A DNA stretch of 64,000 nucleotides, taken from Zingiber officinale. Its lineage: Eukaryota; Streptophyta; Magnoliopsida; Zingiberales; Zingiberaceae. Numbering within the stretch: position 1 is the stretch's first letter; each line of letters starts with the position of its first letter. Below are positions 1 to 46,091 of this stretch, piece by piece. Under the pieces are notes generated by a model. That model worked only from the letters and a program-made list of their open reading frames with translations. It was not told the origin of the DNA and made no database searches. Made by a program: the position numbers and the translations under genes. The stretch spans positions 50,190,722 to 50,254,721 of the forward strand of contig NC_056000.1 in NCBI RefSeq assembly GCF_018446385.1. The letters are read 5' to 3'.

Positions 1-807
1 CACAGCTTCGGTCTCGATAATTTCCACTTTCTGCGAAGTTTATCCCTTCGAAGGCGCCTTCAAGCTCATGGAAGGCGCCTTCCATCCAATCTCCAATGTG
101 CCTTCAAACGCTTCAAAGGCGCCTCTGTGCCACTTCCGCGCGGGCCTTCGGCCAAGCCACCCGAGGCGCCTTCGACAGCCTCGGAGGAGCCTTGGACACT
201 GTTCATCGGAGCATTTTGTGTGCTTTTCACTCCCTGCAAGATACATTAGTTCAAAATACCAACATACCCTGCAACACAAAGTTAGTACGATAAAATATGA
301 TTAATAGAACTGTTTAACAATCTTCGGACTGTCCGGTTCTGACTTTCGGATTTCCCAAAAATTCTAGGTCGAACCGACCCCTACTGTTCCCTCAACGAGG
401 AACGTGTCGTCACCTATTCCTCTCAGGAGAGTTTACCTTTTGTCAGATCAGTCGTCTGGACTTTTATTCAGTGTCAGAGACGTTAGGACTTCATATTGAA
501 CGTCTGATCTCGACCCGTCCAGTCTTCCACCCGATGTCCGCGACCCCTAAGATTTTCACCTAGTGTCCTCGACACTAAGATTTCGCCCAACGTCCTCGAC
601 CCGCCAAGGCTTTTCCCAGTACCCCGAACCATACCTAACTACAGTTAGGACCCACCTGCCTAGAATCCACTAGGACTTTTGTTTAAGATAATTTAGGACT
701 TTCCTGCAAGCTCAGTCACATTTATTAGACAATAAGACAACTTAACTTTGAACTCTTTGCCCTTATCAAAACACAAGTTTGATTGTTTGGTGCTCCCTAG
801 ACCAACA
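1..807 (-). repeat. Eroded 3'-flank/LTR fragment of a SIRE-type retrotransposon family
   Basis: This stretch is a diverged relative of the LTRs at 36882-38017 and 44952-46086. The order of landmarks is the same: AGGCGCC-rich segment, a TCCTGCAA..CAAAGTTAGT box (here near 263-288), a block ending in a GGAACG..GTC box (near 398-412), a GC-rich block of short inverted units (about 480-620), a GACAATAA box near 728, and a terminal ACCAACA at 801-807. Orientation is inferred from the intact copies, which are minus. Short ORFs here (for example 68-304) are not genes. Confidence 0.6.
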
Positions 808-13253: not shown

Positions 13254-13961
13254 TGTAGGATCGAAAAGAATTTAGATATCTCCACAATGACATGATATTG
13301 TCCACTTTGGGCCTAAGCCCTCATGGTTTTGCTCTTGGGCTCTCCCCAAAAGGCCTCATGCCAATGGAGATATCTTTCTCTTATAAACCCATGATCTTTT
13401 CCATGTGTTTTCAATATGGGATTATGTTTGCAACCTTGCAACCCCAACAATCCCCCCCTCAAACAAAGGACCATGGGCTTCCCACGTCCGATCCTCGACC
13501 CACCAGGTCTTCCTGCCCCTCGGTCTACCCGACCTACTAGGACTTCCTGCCCCTCGGTCTACCCGACCTACTAGGACTTCCTGCCCCTCGGTCCACTCGA
13601 CCTACTAGGACTTCTTGCCTGGTGTCTGGTCCTCTTGATCCAAATATAGGAGCCCCCACTTTCTTTGTTCGAGGTCAATATTGTACTTACATAGTTCAAT
13701 CAGACCATAGCTCTTGTGCACAGTCGGCGATTAAACCTTCTGGCAGTCCGGGCTCTGATACCAATTATAGGATCGAAAAGAATTTAGATATCTCCACAAT
13801 GACATGATATTGTCCACTTTGGGCCTAAGCCCTCATGGTTTTGCTCTTGGGCTCTCCCCAAAATGCCTTATGCCAATGGAGATATCTTTCTCTTATAAAC
13901 TCATGATCTTTTCCATGTGTTTTCAATATGGGACTATGTTTGCAACCTTGCAACCCCAACA
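13254..13961 (-). mobile_element. TRIM-like miniature LTR retrotransposon
   Basis: Two 196-bp direct repeats (13254-13449 and 13766-13961) differ at only about five positions and are flanked by GTTGA on both sides (13249-13253, 13962-13966). On the minus strand the LTR reads TGTTGGGG..TA[C/T]A. It is followed by GGTATCAGAGCC (complement of 13751-13762), a tRNA-Met primer site, and the purine tract GAGGGGGGGATT sits against the other LTR (complement of about 13449-13460). Total 708 bp, with no coding capacity. The internal region includes three 34-bp tandem units (13512-13613). Confidence 0.92.
13512..13613. repeat. 34-bp tandem units in the TRIM-like element
   Basis: Three full copies (starts 13512, 13546, 13580) of a unit containing CTCGGTC, a 5-base spacer, CGACC and then CTAGGACTTC. 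Partial copies lie on each side. GGTC/GACC can pair. The GGACTTC linker and GGTC..GACC core are shared with the SIRE LTR array. Confidence 0.8.
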
Positions 13962-36640: not shown

Positions 36641-36881
36641 AAGTTTATGTGTAATTCGGCCGCTCGGCTAAAAACGGTCACTTTTTTGTAATTCAGGCGC
36701 TCGGCCTTAAGGTTTTAAATGCTATCCTTTCGCTTGCTTCTTCATTTATCAATCAGTATGTGTGCTGGCCGGTCGAACTACCAACTACCGTTCGTATTCC
36801 CTTAATTCTCCTTGGCATTCGCCTTTCCTCTCACCTTTCTCGTGTTCGAAAGGGATTTTATCAATCGCCTGGATTTCTCTG
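36641..36881. other. Tail between aORF and SIRE insertion; stub of integrase
   Basis: On the plus strand this would be the aORF 3' UTR. On the minus strand, the first codons next to 36881 continue the integrase frame broken by the insertion (TNREI), then similarity stops. The C-terminal integrase was therefore already lost. Confidence 0.5.
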
Positions 36882-38017
36882 TGTTGGACCGTTAGATTCG
36901 ATAGAGGGGGGGGGGGAGAATATCGATTCGAAAATATCGAGTATAAGCGCAGCGAAAAAGTAAAATAGACACAGTTGTTTTACTTCGTTCAGAGCCTGTG
37001 ACGACTCCTACTCGAAGGCCCGTGGTCCTTGACCACTTTCGTTGGGCAATCACTAGCAATTCGAAATAATGATTACAAAAGAACCGTACAGTGAATGCTA
37101 ATGAAAACTAAAAACAAAATACCGACAAGAAGGGAAAAGAATGGAGCGTAGTGTCGGAGCTTTGTTGGCGTCGCACTGAACGTTGAGCAGCAAGACCAGC
37201 AGTAGAAGAATTCTCAGCTTAATTGATTGATTCTGAAGCTCCTGCCTGGGGCTTCTTTTATATGCTGTTCCAGGCGCCTGGATCCCTTCCGGGCGCCTGG
37301 AATGTGACGTAACTGCACAAACCATGATGCTCCACGTGGCGACGACTCGGCTGGATAGAATTCGCCTTCCGGGCGCCCGGATCCCTTCCGGGCGACCGGA
37401 CCACCTTGTTCCAGAAAACTTCTTTTTCCTGCAAAACAAAGTTAGTCCGAGGCAAATGTATATCCTATAACACAGATTATCAGCACAGTTAAAGTTCAAC
37501 AGATAAATAAAATGAGTATGACTTAGATTCCGTCTTTCCGAGACCGGAATCTAGTCACGATCTCGACTTAGACATCCGAAATGGATCTAAGCCGGATCGA
37601 CGCCTAATGTCCCCTTCCCGGGAACGCGTCCTCACAGTCACTCCCCTCCAGTGACTTACCTCACTTACCTGCCAGACGTCCGGTCAGCCCGTCGACCCGT
37701 CTGGACTTCTCGCCAAGCGTCCGGTCAGCCCGTCGACCCGCTTGGACTTCTCGCCAGCTATCCGGTCAGCCCGTCGACCTAGCTGGACTTCTCGCCAAGC
37801 GTCCGGTCAGCCCGTCGACCCGCTTGGACTTCTCGCCAGCTATCCGGTCAGCCCGTCGACCTAGCTGGACTTCGTGCCAGACATCCGGTCAGCCCGTCGA
37901 CCTGTCTGGGCTTCTCCTGCACACTTGATCAAAGTGTCAGACAATAACAAACTAACTTAACCTGATTTGTCATTCATCAAAACCTGGGTTAAATCGTTAG
38001 TGCTAACCGCACCAACA
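36882..38017 (-). repeat. SIRE-type element 3' LTR
   Basis: 1136 bp. Contains a TATAAAAG box on the minus strand (complement of 37255-37262), GC-rich palindromic GGGCGCCCGG/CCGGGCGCC segments (37268-37400) and the six-unit hairpin array (37672-37909). Confidence 0.95.
37672..37909. repeat. Six 41-bp tandem hairpin units with covarying stems (3' LTR)
   Basis: Units start at 37672, 37713, 37754, 37795, 37836 and 37877. Each is a 7-nt arm, the constant 19-mer TCCGGTCAGCCCGTCGACC, the exact complement of the arm, and an 8-nt linker. The arms are CCAGACG, CCAAGCG, CCAGCTA, CCAAGCG, CCAGCTA and CCAGACA. Every one is matched by its own reverse complement. Inside the 19-mer GGTC and GACC can extend the stem. 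Confidence 0.95.
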
Positions 38018-39539
38018 ATCTCCCCCTTTTTGATGGAATGACAACCTGGTTAAGTTAGTGAAAACATATGCAAGTAACAACATGCATTTATGTGGTTTTT
38101 AAGTTAGTTAGTTAGTATTTTCAAATTGGTTTAGCTAACTTAACCACCTAACCCTTCTCCCCCTTTGGCATTCATCAAAAAATGAACAAAGGTAAATAAT
38201 CATAGTGAAGAGTTATTGTAAAAAAATAAGCACAGATTTTTTGAAATGTCAAGATAATCTTGGGGAATTTAAACTTTTGAAAATTTGTTTAAAGCATTAG
38301 CTTTTAGCTTTTAGAAAGCTAGCTAAGTTTAGATAGTTTCATTTACAAACATAAGTTTTCAAACACCAAAATTCCAAAACTAAGTTTGAAAAATTTATTT
38401 TTCCAAAAACTGATTTATTTTTCAACACTAAGTTTGTAAACGATTTAATTTAAAACTTAAGTTTTGACAATGATTTAAGTTTGAAAAATCTAACTTTCAT
38501 AATTTTCAACACTGAGTTTTTGCAAATCAAATTTCAGTTTACAAATGTTGATTTTGAACTTTACTTTTAGTTTTCAAAGGAGTTTGGTAGAACTAATTTT
38601 GATAAAGTAAAATAATTAAATCTAATTTTCAAAAATCAAAATTTTAAAGTTCAAAAGTACTAGTTTAAAAATCATGGTTTAAAATACTTGAAAAGTTGAG
38701 TTTTCAAGGACTAAGTAAAAAGGATAAAAAGTTTGTGATTTAAAACAAACAATTTAAAAAATTTTAAACAAGTTGATTTTGAAAATTGATTTTTAAACTT
38801 TGATTTTCAAAATTAAGGAAAATGATTTTGAGAAGCTTAGTTTGTAAACTTAAGTTTTGAAAAATCTAATTTTTTAAACTAATTTTTTTATTTTTTATTA
38901 AAATTGAGGTAGAATTTTCTAGAGAGATTTTAAAGAGAAGATTAAAAAATAGCACTTTAAGGAGATAATTAAAAAATAAACCTCCCCCTTAATTTGATAC
39001 TTAACTTTAACCAGCTGTCTAACCAATTAGGTACTAACTAGCTATCAGAAGATAGTAGCTTTCACATGGTTAGTCAGATTAAGTTGATTACAAGCAGTCA
39101 GTTTTTTTTTTTTTTTGACTTGACTGAATAACTCTAATCTGATTAATATCTGAGTTGTGTTTAACGTCCAGACTTATGTTGATGCACTGAAATAAGCATC
39201 TTAAGTCCAGATAGTTGGCCTATGCATCTCACCCCTTTCTATGTTTGTCAGACACAAGCAAGGTAAACCTAGGGTGTTGGTGAGATGCTCAAAAACTAGT
39301 CCTATGGGTACATGCTTTCTAAGGATTCAAAACTAGTCTAAGGCCAAAACTGTTTTTGAAAATCTAAAAATGGTAAGTTTTTTGAAAACATACAGTTTTA
39401 ACTTATAAGTTAAAAAAAGTTTTTAGAAAAATTATAGTCTACCGAGATAAAACATAATCAATGTAGGTCTGAAATATCACTAGATAAATCCAAAATATTT
39501 TACAAGTAGTGTAGCTACAGAAGTAGGTCATCACTAAAG
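38018..39539 (-). other. AT-rich 3' internal region with repeated polypurine-like tracts
   Basis: The purine tract AAAAAGGGGGAGAT abuts the 3' LTR (complement of 38018-38031). Similar tracts are at about 38155-38166 (AAAGGGGGAGAA) and 38985-38994 (AAGGGGGAGG). The rest is AT-rich low-complexity sequence built of AAATTTTGAAAA/TTTTCAAA words. No coding region. Confidence 0.7.
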
Positions 39540-40794
39540 CTACTGAGATGATGAAGGGGGTGGTCCAGATCCCAAGGATCGAATAAGTGCCATCAGCTCA
39601 GTGTGTCGGGTGTCTCCGGCAGCTCGTAACTCGGCAACCTCTCGCCGTATGTCTCGATGAAAATCAGAGTTCTCCTGCTGGAGACTCGCCATAGCTCTCT
39701 CTAGTCCGGTCATACGGTCGGCTAGAGTGCGGGGAGCGTGTCGTGGTGCTCGAGCTGGGGGTGGTGGTGGAGCCGGTGCGGCTTCCTCTGGAAATAGTGC
39801 GAGCATGAACTCGTCCACCTGTGCGTCTGGATCGGGCTGGTGCTGTGCCCCCCTCCGCCAAGACATAGTCCCGTCATCTCTATCTATATGGATGTCGGCT
39901 AGGGAAAAGTTCCGAGCGGCTATAACATCGAACTCGGTCATATGGGCAACGTCTCCCCTAGTGACATCAATGTGCAACGAGGACATATAAGCTGTCAGAA
40001 TGTGACCAAATGGTATATGGACTCGACTGTCAGTCACAAATCCAGCTGAATGGATGATGGTGGAGAAGATATGTAGGTTGATGTCAATGTCTAACCTATG
40101 AATCAAGGCATAAAGTAAGAACGAATGGAATGGGCGCATCACAGCGATGTCCCGAGTGGTCAGTGGTAAAATGCAAAGGACTACAACCCTATAAAGAGCG
40201 TAGTCCTGGACTCGAAGTTCTACTGACCTAAACTGTGTCATAGTGGGATCTCTCTCTCCTCCGAAAAAATACGAATAATTCGTATCGAGAGTAATATGTG
40301 AGTAGGGATCTTCGAACGGTAGATCCCTCGGAGGATAGCACAAAAAGGAGCAAGTAAATGGACGCAACTCTAAAAACTCTCGGATAGTCGTAGGGGAAAA
40401 TACGATATCAGTGCCTGCTGCCCTAGTGGTATATGTGAGATCGTCCACTCTCACTAGGTTATTGCAAAATTCGGCACACAGACTTATGTTTATTGGACTA
40501 GTACATTCGACAAGGTTCCTTAAGTTATAGTGGCCTATAACCTCTAAAGCGGAGGGACATGACCTTAGAAAGAACGATCTATCTATTTAGGTAGTCCTAA
40601 TGGCCTTATAAATAGTAGACTCAAACTTAATCCTAAGGTCGTCTATGGGAAACCTAGGGTCTGTACTAGCATTGGAGGGTCCAGCACCAGTATTTGTTCG
40701 TTTCTTACTGTTAAAAAAAATATTCTAAGAAAGTTTGCAAAAATAATTTCAATTAAAATTTCAGATAGGGGAAGAAGTTTTACCGAGGAGCCAT
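39540..40794 (-). pseudogene. Second ORF of the SIRE-type element: spliced 'putative plant transposon protein'
   Basis: Exon 1 (40784-40794) encodes MAPR minus the last base. A 76-bp GT..AG intron follows, and exon 2 (40707-39540) completes the Arg codon, so the frame is 392 codons. A single in-frame TAA (40587-40589) breaks it near residue 44; the 304 codons from 40454 onward are open. The body (VRVDDLTYTTRAAGTDIVFS, ATIREFLELRPF-like, HSFLLYALIHRLDIDIN) resembles the plant-transposon domain that Pfam names Transposase_32 (PF20167). A proline-rich hinge (APAPPPPPARAP) and a short coiled coil (LADRMTGLERAMASLQQEN) follow. It occupies the place where pol would be. The function is not known. 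One point stop is the only visible defect. Confidence 0.7.
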
Positions 40795-41109: not shown

Positions 41110-42520
41110 TTGAAATTAAAATTTTGAATTAAATATTTTGAAACTGAATTTTTTTTAAAAAGTTGAAATTAAACTTAAAATTTTGAAATTAATATTTTTA
41201 AGTTTGAAATTAAAATTTTGAAAATAATTTTTAAGTTTAAAATTAAAATTTTGAAAATAATTTTTAAGTTTTAAAATTAAAATTTTGAAATTAATTTTTG
41301 AGTTTAAAATTAAAATTTTGAAATTAATTTTTTAAGTTTAAAATTAAAATTTTGAGAATAATTTTTAAGTTTAAAATTAAAATTTTGAAATTAATTTTTT
41401 AAGTTTAAAATTAAAATTTTGAAAATAATTTTTAAGTTTAAAATTAAAATTTTGAGAATAATTTTTAAGTTTAAAATTAAAATTTTGAAAATAATTTTTA
41501 AGTTTAAAATTAAAATTTTGAAATTAGTTTTTGAGTTTAAAATTAAAATTTTGAAATTAATTTTTGAGTTTTAAAATTAAAATTTTGAAATTAATTTTTA
41601 AGTTTAAAATTAAAATTTTGAAATTAATTTTTAAGTTTAAAATTAAAATTTTGAAATTAATTTTTGAGTTTTAAAATTAAAATTTTGAAATTAATTTTTA
41701 AGTTTAAAATTAAAATTTTGAAATTAATTTTTAAGTTTAAAATTAAAATTTTGAAATTAATTTTTGAGTTTTAAAATTAAAATTTTGAAATTAATTTTTG
41801 AGTTTAAAATTAAAATTTTGAAATTAATTTTTAAGTTTAAAATTAAAATTTTGAAATTAATTTTTGAGTTTTAAAATTAAAATTTTGAAATTAATTTTTA
41901 AGTTTAAAATTAAAATTTTGAAAATAATTTTGAAAATAATTTTTAAGTTTAAAATTAAAATTTTGAAATTAATTTTTGAGTTTAAAATTAAAACTTTGAA
42001 ATTAATTTTTGAGTTTAAAATTAAAATTTTGAAATTAATTTTTTAGTTTAAAATTAAAATTTTGAAAATAATTTTTAAATTTAAAATTAAAATTTTGAAA
42101 TTAATTTTTAAGTTTAAAATTTTGAAATTAATTTTTGAGTTTAAAATTAAAATTTTGAAAATAATTTTTGAGTTTAAAATTAAAATTTTGAAAATAATTT
42201 AATAATTTTTAAGTTTAAAATTGAAATTTTAAAAATAATTTTTAAGTTTAAAATTAAAATTTTGAAAATAATTTTTAAGTTTAAAATTGAAATTTTAAAA
42301 ATAATTTTTAAGTTTAAAATTAAAATTTTGAAAATAATTTTTAAGTTTAAAATTAAAATTTTGAAATTAATTTTTAAGTTTAAAATTGAAATTTTGAAAA
42401 TAAATTTTTAAGTTTAAAATTAAAATTTTGAAAATAAATTTTAAGTTTAAAATTAAAATTTTGAAAATAATTTTTAAGTTAAAATTAAAAGTTTGAAATT
42501 AATTTTTAAGTTTTAAAAAC
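41110..42520. repeat. 33-bp AT-rich tandem array
   Basis: About 43 copies of TTTTTAAGTTTAAAATTAAA plus AATTTTGAAATTAA and close variants (AAATTAA/AAAATAA, AAGTTT/GAGTTT). The 33-bp period equals 11 codons, so open frames run through parts of it (for example 41864-42046). These are a consequence of the period, not genes. Confidence 0.95.
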
Positions 42521-43062: not shown

Positions 43063-44739
43063 TTAAGTTTTGATTTTAGGCTTGTGTCGATTCTTTTTAT
43101 AGTTATGATTAACTTGGTGATAATTTTGTTGATTTTCAAACTGTTTAGATTTTGAATTTGATTTAGGTTTGTATTTTGGATTTTGGTTTGGTTTATTCGA
43201 TTTTATATAATGTATTTTTTCTTTAGGTATATAATATTGATTAAGTCCTACTTGCGTGGTCAGACACGCTTTCGGAACCCAAGCTAGATTGGTTGATTTG
43301 TATTGGGTTATTAATGAGTTGAAGGTTTTATTTGAATTCGACTTATATCCCAGTCCGGTTTTATTATAACATGCTTTTTGATTATTTAGGATTAAGTCTA
43401 GATTTTTTGATCTTGTTGTAAATTTTTCTAGTAATTCTTTTAAATTTTTAACATCATTTTTTAACGATAGATTTTCCTCTTCAAGTGTTAGATCTTGAGT
43501 TGGATTCGAATTTTTTAATTGTTCCTTGAGGTTTTGATTTTCCTCAAGAAGTGATTTATTTTCATTTTCAACTTTAGTTAATTTACTATTCAAACAGGAG
43601 ATGATTCTAAAAAATTTTTTGTTTAAATTAAAGTATACCTCATTCGAGCCTTCGGAAACGAGTACGGACTCGTGGCTTGTTTCGGGTTCAGACCCGTCTT
43701 CATCTTCCGACTCGTCTTCTGTTTCGGCTTCGCGGGCCATCAGTGCGAGGTGGCTCTGATGTTTCTGTTCTTCTTCTTCTGATTCGTCCGAGGAGTCGTC
43801 CCACGTTGCTTTCAGTGCTTTCTTTTTGGTTGGCTTTGGTTTGTCGAACTTCAGTTTTGGGCATTCGTTCTTGTAGTGTCCCTTTTTATTGCAGCCGTAG
43901 CAAGTCACGTTCTTTTGTTCTGAGGGAGAGCTGATCTTTTGAAGGTCCTTTTTGCTGAAGCTCCTCTTTCTCCTGGTGAACATTTTTCTTACCAAGTTCA
44001 CCAGGTGTTCTTCGTCTTCGGAGTCTTGGTCAGATTCATCTTCATTTTCAGGCTTGCTTTTCTTTTCTTTGGAGGAACCTGCAAATAGAGCTATACCTTT
44101 CTCGGCTCCAGCATTAGTTTGTTCATGTAATTCTAATTCACAGAAAAGCTCATCTAATTTTAAGTTAGAAAGATTCTTAGAAATTTTGTAGGCATCTACT
44201 ATTGATGCCCACAAACTATTACGTGGAAAGGCGTTTAATGCGTACCTTATTAAGTCTCTGTTCTCCATCTGGTGGCCTATCGCATGGAGCCCGTTGAGGA
44301 TGTCCTTGATCCTCGCGTGTAGTTGATTCGCCGTTTCACCTTCCTGCATTTTTATATTAAAAATTTTATTTAAGAGAAGGTCTCGTTTTGTTACCTTGGC
44401 GTCGTTCATTCCCTCGTGCAGCTCGATCAACTTGTCCCATAGCTCTTTAGCGTTTTTGTGTGGACCGACTCTGTTCAGTTCTTCTCTTGTCAATCCACAT
44501 TGTAGAGTGTTGATCGCCTTATTTTCTGTTGATGCTTTTTTCTTCAGATCTGCTGTCCAGTCTTCAGGATCTACTAGATTGCCGGTGTTGTCCACTGGAA
44601 TTTTGTAGGGTCTCGTAATGCTCATCCACTGGTCGAAATCTGTTTTGAGGTAGACCTCCATGCGCTTCTTCCAGTACGGGAAGTCGTCCCCGTTGAAGAG
44701 TGGAGGTCGCACCGTGCTAAATCCTTCTTGTTGGGACAT
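43063..44739 (-). CDS. SIRE-type gag (capsid/nucleocapsid), intact
   Basis: 558 codons from ATG 44739 (MSQQEGFSTVRPPLFNGDDF). The open frame goes further upstream, but this is the conserved Copia gag start. Residues about 13-245 are the DUF4219/UBN2 gag region (FPYWKKRMEVYL, AKELWDKLIELHEG, GETANQLHARIKDILNGLHA, ELHEQT). One CCHC knuckle, CYGCNKKGHYKNEC, lies at about residues 318-331 and would bind the genomic RNA. Acidic stretches (DESDQDSEDEE, ETEDESEDEDGSEPE) and a coiled coil (KLTKVENENKSLLEENQNLK) follow. The tail is Asn/Lys-rich. The stop at 43063 comes before any protease, so it is a gag-only protein. No disabling mutation is visible, in line with the young LTRs. Confidence 0.9.
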   Translation of the reverse strand: MSQQEGFSTVRPPLFNGDDFPYWKKRMEVYLKTDFDQWMSITRPYKIPVDNTGNLVDPEDWTADLKKKASTENKAINTLQCGLTREELNRVGPHKNAKELWDKLIELHEGMNDAKVTKRDLLLNKIFNIKMQEGETANQLHARIKDILNGLHAIGHQMENRDLIRYALNAFPRNSLWASIVDAYKISKNLSNLKLDELFCELELHEQTNAGAEKGIALFAGSSKEKKSKPENEDESDQDSEDEEHLVNLVRKMFTRRKRSFSKKDLQKISSPSEQKNVTCYGCNKKGHYKNECPKLKFDKPKPTKKKALKATWDDSSDESEEEEQKHQSHLALMAREAETEDESEDEDGSEPETSHESVLVSEGSNEVYFNLNKKFFRIISCLNSKLTKVENENKSLLEENQNLKEQLKNSNPTQDLTLEEENLSLKNDVKNLKELLEKFTTRSKNLDLILNNQKACYNKTGLGYKSNSNKTFNSLITQYKSTNLAWVPKACLTTQVGLNQYYIPKEKIHYIKSNKPNQNPKYKPKSNSKSKQFENQQNYHQVNHNYKKNRHKPKIKT

Positions 44740-44936
44740 TCTGTGCACAGGTAAATAACCGAAAAAAAATATCCCAAGACTTGGTCTTGGATTAGTAGTG
44801 CGGGAAGAAAAAAATAGTAAAAAAAATCTAGATTGATATTGCAAAAAAAATGATAAACAAGTTTTGAGTGTAAAACTGAAAACCAAAAAAATCACCCCCA
44901 GTCTGATTGGTGGTTGCACCAAATCAGAGCAGTACC

Positions 44937-44948
44937 TGCTCTGATACC
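44937..44948 (-). other. Primer-binding site of SIRE-type element
   Basis: Complement reads TGGTATCAGAGC, three bases inside the 5' LTR at 44952; initiator tRNA-Met. Confidence 0.85.
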
Positions 44949-44951
44949 ACT

Positions 44952-46086
44952 TGTTGGACCGTTAGATTCGATAGAGGGGGGGGGGAGAATATCGATTCGA
45001 AAATATCGAGTATAAGCGCAGGGGAAAAGTAAAATAGACACAGTTGTTTTACTTCGTTCGGAGCCTGTGACGACTCCTACTCGAAGGCCCGTGGTCCTTG
45101 ACCACTTTCGTTGGGCAATCACTAGTAATTCGAAATAATGATTACAAAAGAACCGTACAGTGAATGCTAATGAAAACTAAAAACAAAATACCGACAAGAA
45201 GGGAAAAGAATGGAGCGTAGTGTCGGAGCTTTGTTGGCGTCGCACTGAACGTTGAGCAGCAAGACCAGCAGTAGAAGAATTCTCAGCTTGATTGATTGAT
45301 TCTGAAGCTCCTGCCTGGGGCTTCTTTTATATGCTGTTCCAGGCGCCTGGATCCCTTCCGGGCGCCTGGAATGTGACGCAGCTGCACAAACCATGATGCT
45401 CCACGTGGCGACGACTCGGCTGGATAGAATTCGCCTTCCGGGCGCCCGGATCCCCTCCGGGCGCCCGGACCACCTTGTTCCAGAAAACTCCTTTTTCCTG
45501 CAAAACAAAGTTAGTCCGAGGCAAATGTATATCCTGCAACACAGATTGTCAGCACAGTTAAAGTTCAACAAATAAATAAAAAGAGTATGACTTAGATTCC
45601 GTCTTTCCGAGACCGGAATCTAGTCACGATCTCGACTTAGACATCCGAAATGGATCTAAGCCGGATCGACGCCTAATGTCCCCTTCCCGGGAACGCGTCC
45701 TCACAGTCACTCCCCTCCAGTGACTTACCTCACTTACCTGCCAGACGTCCGGTCAGCCCGTCGACCCGTCTGGACTTCTCGCCAAGCGTCCGGTCAGCCC
45801 GTCGACCCGCTTGGACTTCTCGCCAGCTATCCGGTCAGCCCGTCGACCTAGCTGGACTTCTCGCCAAGCGTCCGGTCAGTCCGTCGACCCGCTTAGACTT
45901 CTCGCCAGCTATCCGATCAGCCCGTCGACCTAGCTGGACTTTGTGCCAGACATCCGGTCAGCCCGTCGACTTGTCTGGGCTTCTCCTGCACACTTGATCA
46001 AAGTGTCAGACAATAACAAACTAACTTAACCTGATTTGTCATTCATCAAAACCTGGGTTAAATCGTTAGTGCTAACCGCACCAACA
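44952..46086 (-). repeat. SIRE-type element 5' LTR
   Basis: 1135 bp, partner of 36882-38017. Carries the same hairpin array at 45741-45978. Confidence 0.95.
45741..45978. repeat. Six 41-bp hairpin units (5' LTR)
   Basis: Same order of arms as in the other LTR. Some units have acquired single changes that weaken pairing (unit 4 right arm CGCTTAG, unit 6 with a changed base beside the right arm, unit 5 loop CCGATC). This is what unselected decay after insertion would give. Confidence 0.93.
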
Positions 46087-46091
46087 CTCTG

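Follow-up and report, generated by a model that had tools for sequence, protein, structure and literature searches.

Palindromic units with individually paired arms in the LTRs of a probable Sirevirus-type element of Zingiber officinale

How can the arms of neighbouring hairpins differ from one another while each remains complementary to its own partner? This question is raised by an array in the LTR of a retrotransposon lying in the 64,000-nucleotide stretch of Zingiber officinale DNA analysed in this study (hereafter, the window). The original prediction described six 41-bp units with a constant 19-mer and four matched arm forms, and this description was exact. The units begin at 37672, 37713, 37754, 37795, 37836 and 37877, and their left arms are, in order, CCAGACG, CCAAGCG, CCAGCTA, CCAAGCG, CCAGCTA and CCAGACA (types A, C, B, C, B and D). 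The right arm is the exact reverse complement of the left in 6/6 units and the 19-nt cores are identical in 6/6, with four 7-nt arm forms surrounding one 19-mer and GACTT standing between the units. The GGTC/GACC pair proposed as a second helix does form one in single units, where a 3-nt bulge separates it from the arms. The same six units recur in the other LTR of the element, with one core change in 3/6.

The array stands well above the chance level. Tandem Repeats Finder reported a period of 41 in both arrays (37679-37916 and 45748-45985), and a degenerate 33-mer pattern allowing up to 3 mismatches had 12 matches in the window versus 0 in 100 shuffles. Six non-overlapping stems of at least 6 bp were present in the array, compared with a mean of 0.71 and a maximum of 4 in 200 shuffles. 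Moreover, a count of 6 such stems was reached by just 4 of 1500 background windows (260 nt each), and some of these windows were themselves arrays of the same LTR family (the main family).

Table 1. Positions of the features in the window that bear on the array and its host element.
Feature	Position	Strand	Basis or remark
LTR, 3' in element sense, 1136 bp, TG start, CA end	36882..38017	-	5-bp target duplication
LTR, 5' in element sense, 1135 bp	44952..46086	-	20 substitutions in 1135 sites versus the other LTR
Six-unit array of 41-bp palindromes (types A C B C B D)	37672..37909	-	unit listing
Second six-unit array, other LTR of the same element	45741..45978	-	5/6 units with perfect arms
TATAAAA box	37256..37262	-	~410 nt from the array, on its downstream side in element sense
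Four 12-nt CCRGGCGMCYGG boxes (CCGGGCGCCCGG-type), just upstream of the TATA box	37270..37399	-	resemble the published Sirevirus RM
Polypurine tract (PPT) AGGGGGAG, AT, then LTR TG	38014..38029	-	Sirevirus-type junction
Second, upstream polypurine tract AAAGGGGGAG	38157..38166	-	sequence inspection
Arm of an inverted repeat, within the LTR; other arm at 38027-38044	37967..37982	-	spans the PPT/LTR junction
Stop-to-stop open frame, Retrotran_gag_2 (PF14223), copia-type gag	43063..44961	-	profile match
Open frame, sub-threshold Transposase_32 (PF20167), 43.6 bits versus a cut-off of 45	39540..40586	-	profile match
Array with other hairpins (family 2), homologous LTR place	440..705	-	flank homology

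The host element is oriented on the minus strand, has the PBS TGGTATCAGAGC and is flanked by the target duplication CTCTG at 36877-36881 and 46087-46091 (Table 1). Transitions make up 17 of the substitutions between its LTRs (K ~0.018). The array does lie inside the LTR, as originally described, at 109-346 of its 1136 nt. This position upstream of the TATA box places it in U3, so the RNA should carry it near its 3' end alone and not, as had been claimed, at both ends. The minus-strand sequence AGGGGGAG-AT-TGTTGG at the 38017 junction supplies a PPT octamer with an attachment site, and an inverted repeat surrounds the PPT/LTR junction. The PPT is repeated once, at 38157, which is the low end of multiple copies, as the published average upstream of the 3' LTR is four. 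Such a junction, multiple PPTs and a junction inverted repeat are described as non-coding marks of Sireviruses (Ty1/copia) in the available part of the report that also gives this average (PMC2829016). The CCRGGCGMCYGG boxes are perfect palindromes in 2/4 cases in the 36882-38017 LTR and in 3/4 in the other LTR.

The frames tested in the window element included a gag but no pol. The frame with the Transposase_32-like match, which occupies the expected place of pol, is perhaps a captured host or transposon gene, and an AT-rich tandem repeat with a 33-bp period (about 41 copies) lies between it and the gag frame (41169-42518). The array-bearing relatives L017 and L024 encode integrase (rve) followed by RVT_2. 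Together with the non-coding marks, this gene order in the relatives suggests that the window element is most likely of the Sirevirus type without a pol of its own. A frame with an rve match forms the right flank of the element, which is therefore probably nested inside another one.

The unit proved to be very abundant. When 3.09 Gb of the genome (211 contigs) was searched, the 19-mer core with up to 2 mismatches was found at 45,464 + 45,646 = 91,110 sites, versus 2 + 2 = 4 for the reversed control. A sample of 207 units was drawn from 20 regions of C1, 13 further arrays and the window; the C1 regions were picked by a perfect core, so the sample leans to younger units. The four arm types accommodated 193/207 units, and the 14 units dropped before the type counts comprise about 7 that resemble real units with indels, one real unit (L033) with 6/7 matched pairs, and others that resemble chance matches. 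The order of units was largely A (B C)n B D or A C B C B D, with partial deviations in L011, L015, L017, L018, L019 and L023, and 8 contiguous units were present in L011, L017 and L019. Adjacent units were of the same type in 15/145 cases versus 32.9 in order shuffles, a comparison in which shared ancestry was left in. The order A B C B D (L009-L041 arrays) is nearly palindromic, A and D being one pair apart; this symmetry, which is absent from the window order A C B C B D, is retained by longer arrays such as A B C B C B D (L027). It was also observed that two main-family LTRs adjoin the array region of another LTR of these related families (L014:8219-8230; L030/L063), which may reflect preferred nesting.

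Young copies were sampled at 20 places on 13 contigs, picked from the 40 most window-like. All 20 followed the A C B C B D order, in that one or both arms of nearly every unit agreed with it, with the exceptions of one array lacking A as found and one L061 unit changed on both sides at different positions. In these copies, 106/119 units were perfect and 13 imperfect, and matched two-sided changes numbered 0. The inherited order and the lack of paired changes in the young copies rule out the four arm forms as a record of recent independent paired changes; they are old unit types common to relatives and not fresh paired changes in the window array.

The decay of genomic copies was mostly one-sided. 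Among the typed units, 124/193 had perfect arms, and the 1351 pair cells contained 105 one-sided changes (52 left, 53 right) and 9 both-sided changes, all of them matched. Independent sides would give 4.4 both-sided changed cells. When right arms were shuffled within type, 3.2 matched cells were obtained and 0.12% of 5000 shuffles reached 9, although three of the nine paired changes share one form and relatedness was left in. One one-sided arm change, CTAAGCG/CGCTTGG with a 1-nt insertion, was common to four insertions. Perfect arms were found in 16/53 units where the flank was less than 90% window-like and in 107/138 units of the other arrays; L014, whose listed flank is that of a neighbouring LTR, was counted among the latter, L016 was left out, and flank identity was measured to the window, so that age is mixed with subfamily distance. 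Poor arms also occurred in close relatives (2/5 perfect in L022, 3/7 in L038).

Covariation across types was much stronger. It was computed on 111/112 distinct units with relatedness left in. Over the 111 distinct units, 92.1% of cells paired versus 82.5% in shuffles, 175 cells were changed on both sides versus 74.5, and the covariation was 0.366 versus 0.187, with 0/500 shuffles as high. Sliding the partner abolished this signal. Weaker counts were given by pairs (8 versus 5.7, reached in 28/500 shuffles) and by pair types (19 versus 17.1, 46/500). Covariation was strong across types and weak within single positions and types, and the across-type signal mostly re-expresses the existence of four matched types. 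Further matched arm pairs, which the original prediction had named as support for selection, were found: the main family has nine matched arm forms, all linkable by single base-pair steps, and others occur in two related families. Four of the nine are common and five rest on 1-2 units (1-2 insertions) each, so some of the latter could be chance double decay. The claim that the arms differ as matched pairs beyond simple duplication is upheld, and the interpretation as a whole is supported in part. The stronger claim, that pairing is selected or that arms are replaced as pairs, is favoured by the matched forms and weakened by the one-sided change of the copies and the age of the forms. Unmatched changes and descent from one ancestral block had been named as evidence against it; one-sided changes do prevail and the order is largely inherited, yet the forms differ by matched pairs.

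Between the array and the LTR end, relatives with 73-77% flank identity were found in which homology resumes beyond the array. In family 2, represented by L014:8425-8775, window 440-705, the minus strand of L013 and 39 further arrays (from 41 listed rows, of which one was the query itself and another lay next to a place already included), the homologous place holds different units: CCAG...GGTC-CTCCA-GACC...CTGG; CCTAGAGTC-CCC-GACTCTAGG; CCTAGGG...CCCTAGG; and CCTAAG-ACAA-CTTAGG, with GACTT or similar as spacer. For both this family and family 3, the templates of the units were chosen by eye from listings. Stems beat shuffles in 4/11 segments of L014 (9, 7, 7 and 6 bp) and in 1/4 of L015. Family 2 arrays (260-350 nt) carry 3-4 stems versus shuffle means of 0.6-0.7, but at least 3 stems were found in 182/1500 background windows, so this density alone is not unusual. 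Paired changes in family 2 were close to chance (U1, 4 versus 4.3; UL, 3 versus 1.2 in shuffles). The clear paired cases are U5 arm position 6, which is A:T in 26/39 rows and T:A in the window copy, and UL, with C:G and A:T for G:C (L083, L066). A count of 14 paired changes in U5 was rejected as evidence, since 13/14 came from eight rows with a neighbouring CCTAGGGTTACC-type unit, and one of the 3 UL cases (L013) was actually another unit. The partner LTR of the family 2 window copy (the 696 copy) was absent from the 9.7 kb left of the window.

Family 3 was represented by L015:7335-7505, L063 and 20 of 40 listed places. Its four positional units follow the window plan, arm7-TCN-GGTC-loop-GACC-arm7'-GACTT, with other arms, nearest to CCAGTTG, CCAGCTG, CCAGATA and CCAGCTA, and other loops, mostly of 4, 5, 7 and 5 nt. 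Units V1-V4 were found in 18, 14, 18 and 21 of 22 copies and paired in 154/198, 104/154, 151/198 and 165/231 cells, respectively. Perfect arms were present in 5/18, 0/14 (V2), 2/18 and 2/21 units (9/71 in sum), and matched two-sided changes numbered 8, 9, 9 and 9 versus 5.3, 6.1, 7.1 and 8.5 in shuffles (35 versus 27 in sum). The arm forms CCAGATA and CCAGCTA are shared by family 3 and the main family, but the loops are not. The arms therefore appear to predate the common core, and this core may have spread between units without taking the arms with it. Outside these counts, several family 3 copies (L103-L122) have a fifth hairpin-like unit, CTTGGTG-TCA-GGTC-CTCCA-GACC-CGTCAAG, with two G-T pairs, preceding the TCCTGCACACTT flank. 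Relatives with similar flanks at L015:249, L015:3147 and near 1119 on the minus strand of L022 have CTTCTCG-like spacers and, by eye, no clear hairpins, and these LTRs are perhaps a family that lost or never had them. Elsewhere in the window, 13254-13960 is a small element that has PBS-like and PPT-like sites and a pair of similar LTR-like repeats (about 180 bp each); between the repeats lies a 34-bp tandem array (13496-13619) with units that resemble the hairpin units (GGTC...GACC, GGACTTC) and have no 6-bp arms.

Predicted folding of LTR RNA, which the original prediction suggested as a check, gave a divided result. For four single units, the folding energies ranged from -14.9 to -15.7 kcal/mol (sense) and from -14.4 to -15.2 kcal/mol (antisense). 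The whole-array sense RNA folded no better than shuffles (z -0.40) and was dismissed as support for structure; the antisense strand of the whole array did better than its shuffles (z -3.41). When the window array was folded as a whole, a unit paired with its own arm with a mean probability of 0.19 (sense) or 0.51 (antisense), and most other tested arrays gave a lower antisense value. For structure in the sense RNA, G-U should be tolerated over A-C; G-U mispairs occupied 37 cells and A-C 34, so there was no sign of RNA-level pairing tolerance in genomic copies.

Any explanation has to account for what was observed directly, namely the architecture, the arm forms, their sharing among sampled copies and the mostly one-sided decay. 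We tentatively favour the view that this is a Sirevirus-type palindromic repeat array in U3, kin of the RM boxes, with pairing kept in the source elements. That pairing is probably kept by selection or by template switching, and selection for shape is placed first among the readings, with some reserve. The unit would be a two-storey hairpin in which a constant inner GGTC/GACC dyad with its loop is joined through a 3-nt bulge to unit-specific 7-nt outer arms. A few source elements would generate new copies, and the unit would act in a cis-regulatory region. If the dyad or hairpin shape mattered and not the arm sequence, arm changes would survive mainly as pairs; each burst would stamp the current set of arm pairs onto many copies, which would then decay one side at a time. 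Candidate readers of the pairing are a cruciform, single-stranded cDNA, RNA or a dimeric protein. Loops and cores have seemingly been exchanged between units with the arms undisturbed, which fits a module defined by shape. Any paired history beyond what chance and inheritance give would belong to the source elements and to the differences between families. A bolder form, in which RM boxes are position-coded hairpin modules whose arms selection keeps complementary and unlike those of their neighbours so that units self-fold, with loop and core swappable wholesale, is improbable.

Complementarity could also arise without selection, if a polymerase, of the genome or the element's reverse transcriptase, copied one arm from the other and so erased or doubled a mutation. 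The available parts of two reports describe template switching as maintaining stems and homogenising arms (PMC8794818, PMC8604942), and transversion pairs such as A:T to T:A fit a one-step copy. The same process can invert spacers, yet of 317 cores (up to 4 mismatches, 56 loci) none lay within 300 nt of a core in the opposite orientation; in addition, steps of one base pair each suffice to join all the matched arm forms, and one-sided changes are frequent in genomic copies. On this balance, template switching as the sole cause is rather unlikely. The dyad might instead be a repeated enhancer box that a dimeric protein recognises in double-stranded DNA, with complementarity stemming from half-site symmetry, a reading that overlaps with the favoured one. 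The U3 position upstream of the TATA box and the inner GGTC/GACC common to the main family and family 3 agree with it, as do the Sirevirus RMs, dyad-symmetric boxes upstream of the promoter that have been likened to cis-acting activators (PMC2829016, in the part available). With a single factor the half-site letters should be fixed, however, whereas 4/7 outer arm pairs have two to three common complementary forms, and loops of mostly 4 to 8 nt alter the half-site spacing between families; we therefore regard dimeric sites by themselves as a fairly unlikely account. Finally, a few ancient hairpins may have been duplicated and shuffled without any maintenance, all arm forms being old unit types. 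The largely inherited array order, the dominance of one-sided changes (105 versus 9) and the near-chance paired changes of families 2 and 3 are what plain inheritance would give, but the differences among the old arm forms are matched pairs, the intermediates being matched too, and arms of other sequence, mostly paired, stand at apparently homologous positions in family 3; as a full account, plain inheritance is doubtful. Arrays with varying but paired arms, in a very abundant repeat that has several related LTR families in one genome, make it possible to ask whether shape or sequence counts and whether paired change stems from selection or template switching, a question that bears on covariation-based structure inference generally.

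Sequence searches placed the array in no catalogued class: the literature search by core sequence returned 0 papers, Rfam gave 0 matches at the gathering threshold, the translated array had no protein match at 1e-3 among 1256 candidates, and scans of viral and genome contigs gave 0 matches in a collection from which records of the source genome were possibly excluded. The original statement that no LTR feature of this form had been described was nevertheless wrong, since palindromic motifs of Sirevirus LTRs are known and 3 of 13 have the same CGGTC...GACCG dyad. According to the available part of Bousios et al. 2010 (PMC2829016), Sirevirus LTRs carry dyad-symmetric, palindromic repeated motifs (RM boxes) upstream of the promoter or TATA box, which the authors compared with cis-acting activators and proposed in 2010 as regulatory boxes; 3/13 consensus RMs are CGGTC(N)GACCG dyads, CGGTCTGACCG, CGGTCGACCG and CGGTCAGACCG (Osr10, Vitis and Osr8), and the RMs measure 10-20 nt, with one consensus and at least 8 copies per element, starting 200-400 nt inside the LTR. 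The present array resembles them as a palindromic LTR repeat upstream of the TATA box, and their CGGTC-GACCG dyad equals the inner stem here. With respect to the CGG-CCG signature of RMs, units A and C read CGGTC...GACCCG, whereas B and D read CGGTC...GACCTA or GACCTG. In contrast to RM boxes, the window array begins 109 nt inside the LTR and has six units, fewer and nearer the LTR end, and its units add 7-nt outer arms, a bulge, several arm forms per LTR and GACTT spacers.

Template-switch hairpins are a further point of comparison. The accessible portions of the two reports state that template switching creates and maintains perfect stems and yields multi-base compensatory changes (PMC8794818), and that it homogenises arms and inverts spacers (PMC8604942); the likeness lies in arms changing together, and the difference in spacer inversion, which is absent here. 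In maize, palindrome clusters of Sirevirus LTRs are small-RNA hotspots and have been treated as cis-regulatory (Bousios et al. 2016, as cited in the parts seen of PMC10760457 and PMC5311732). These share with the present array the LTR cis-region, a predicted structure and a high variability; the maize motif is CACCGGACNNNGTCCGGTG, and the parts seen of the two citing papers do not mention unit-specific paired arms. No mechanism reading the palindromes was found in the portions of the Sirevirus literature examined, and those dealing with LTR hairpin or palindrome arrays contained no description of unit-specific outer arms that stay complementary. Judged against these sources as far as they were available, the palindromic LTR arrays of Sireviruses are known, and the outer arms that vary by unit yet remain complementary appear to be new.
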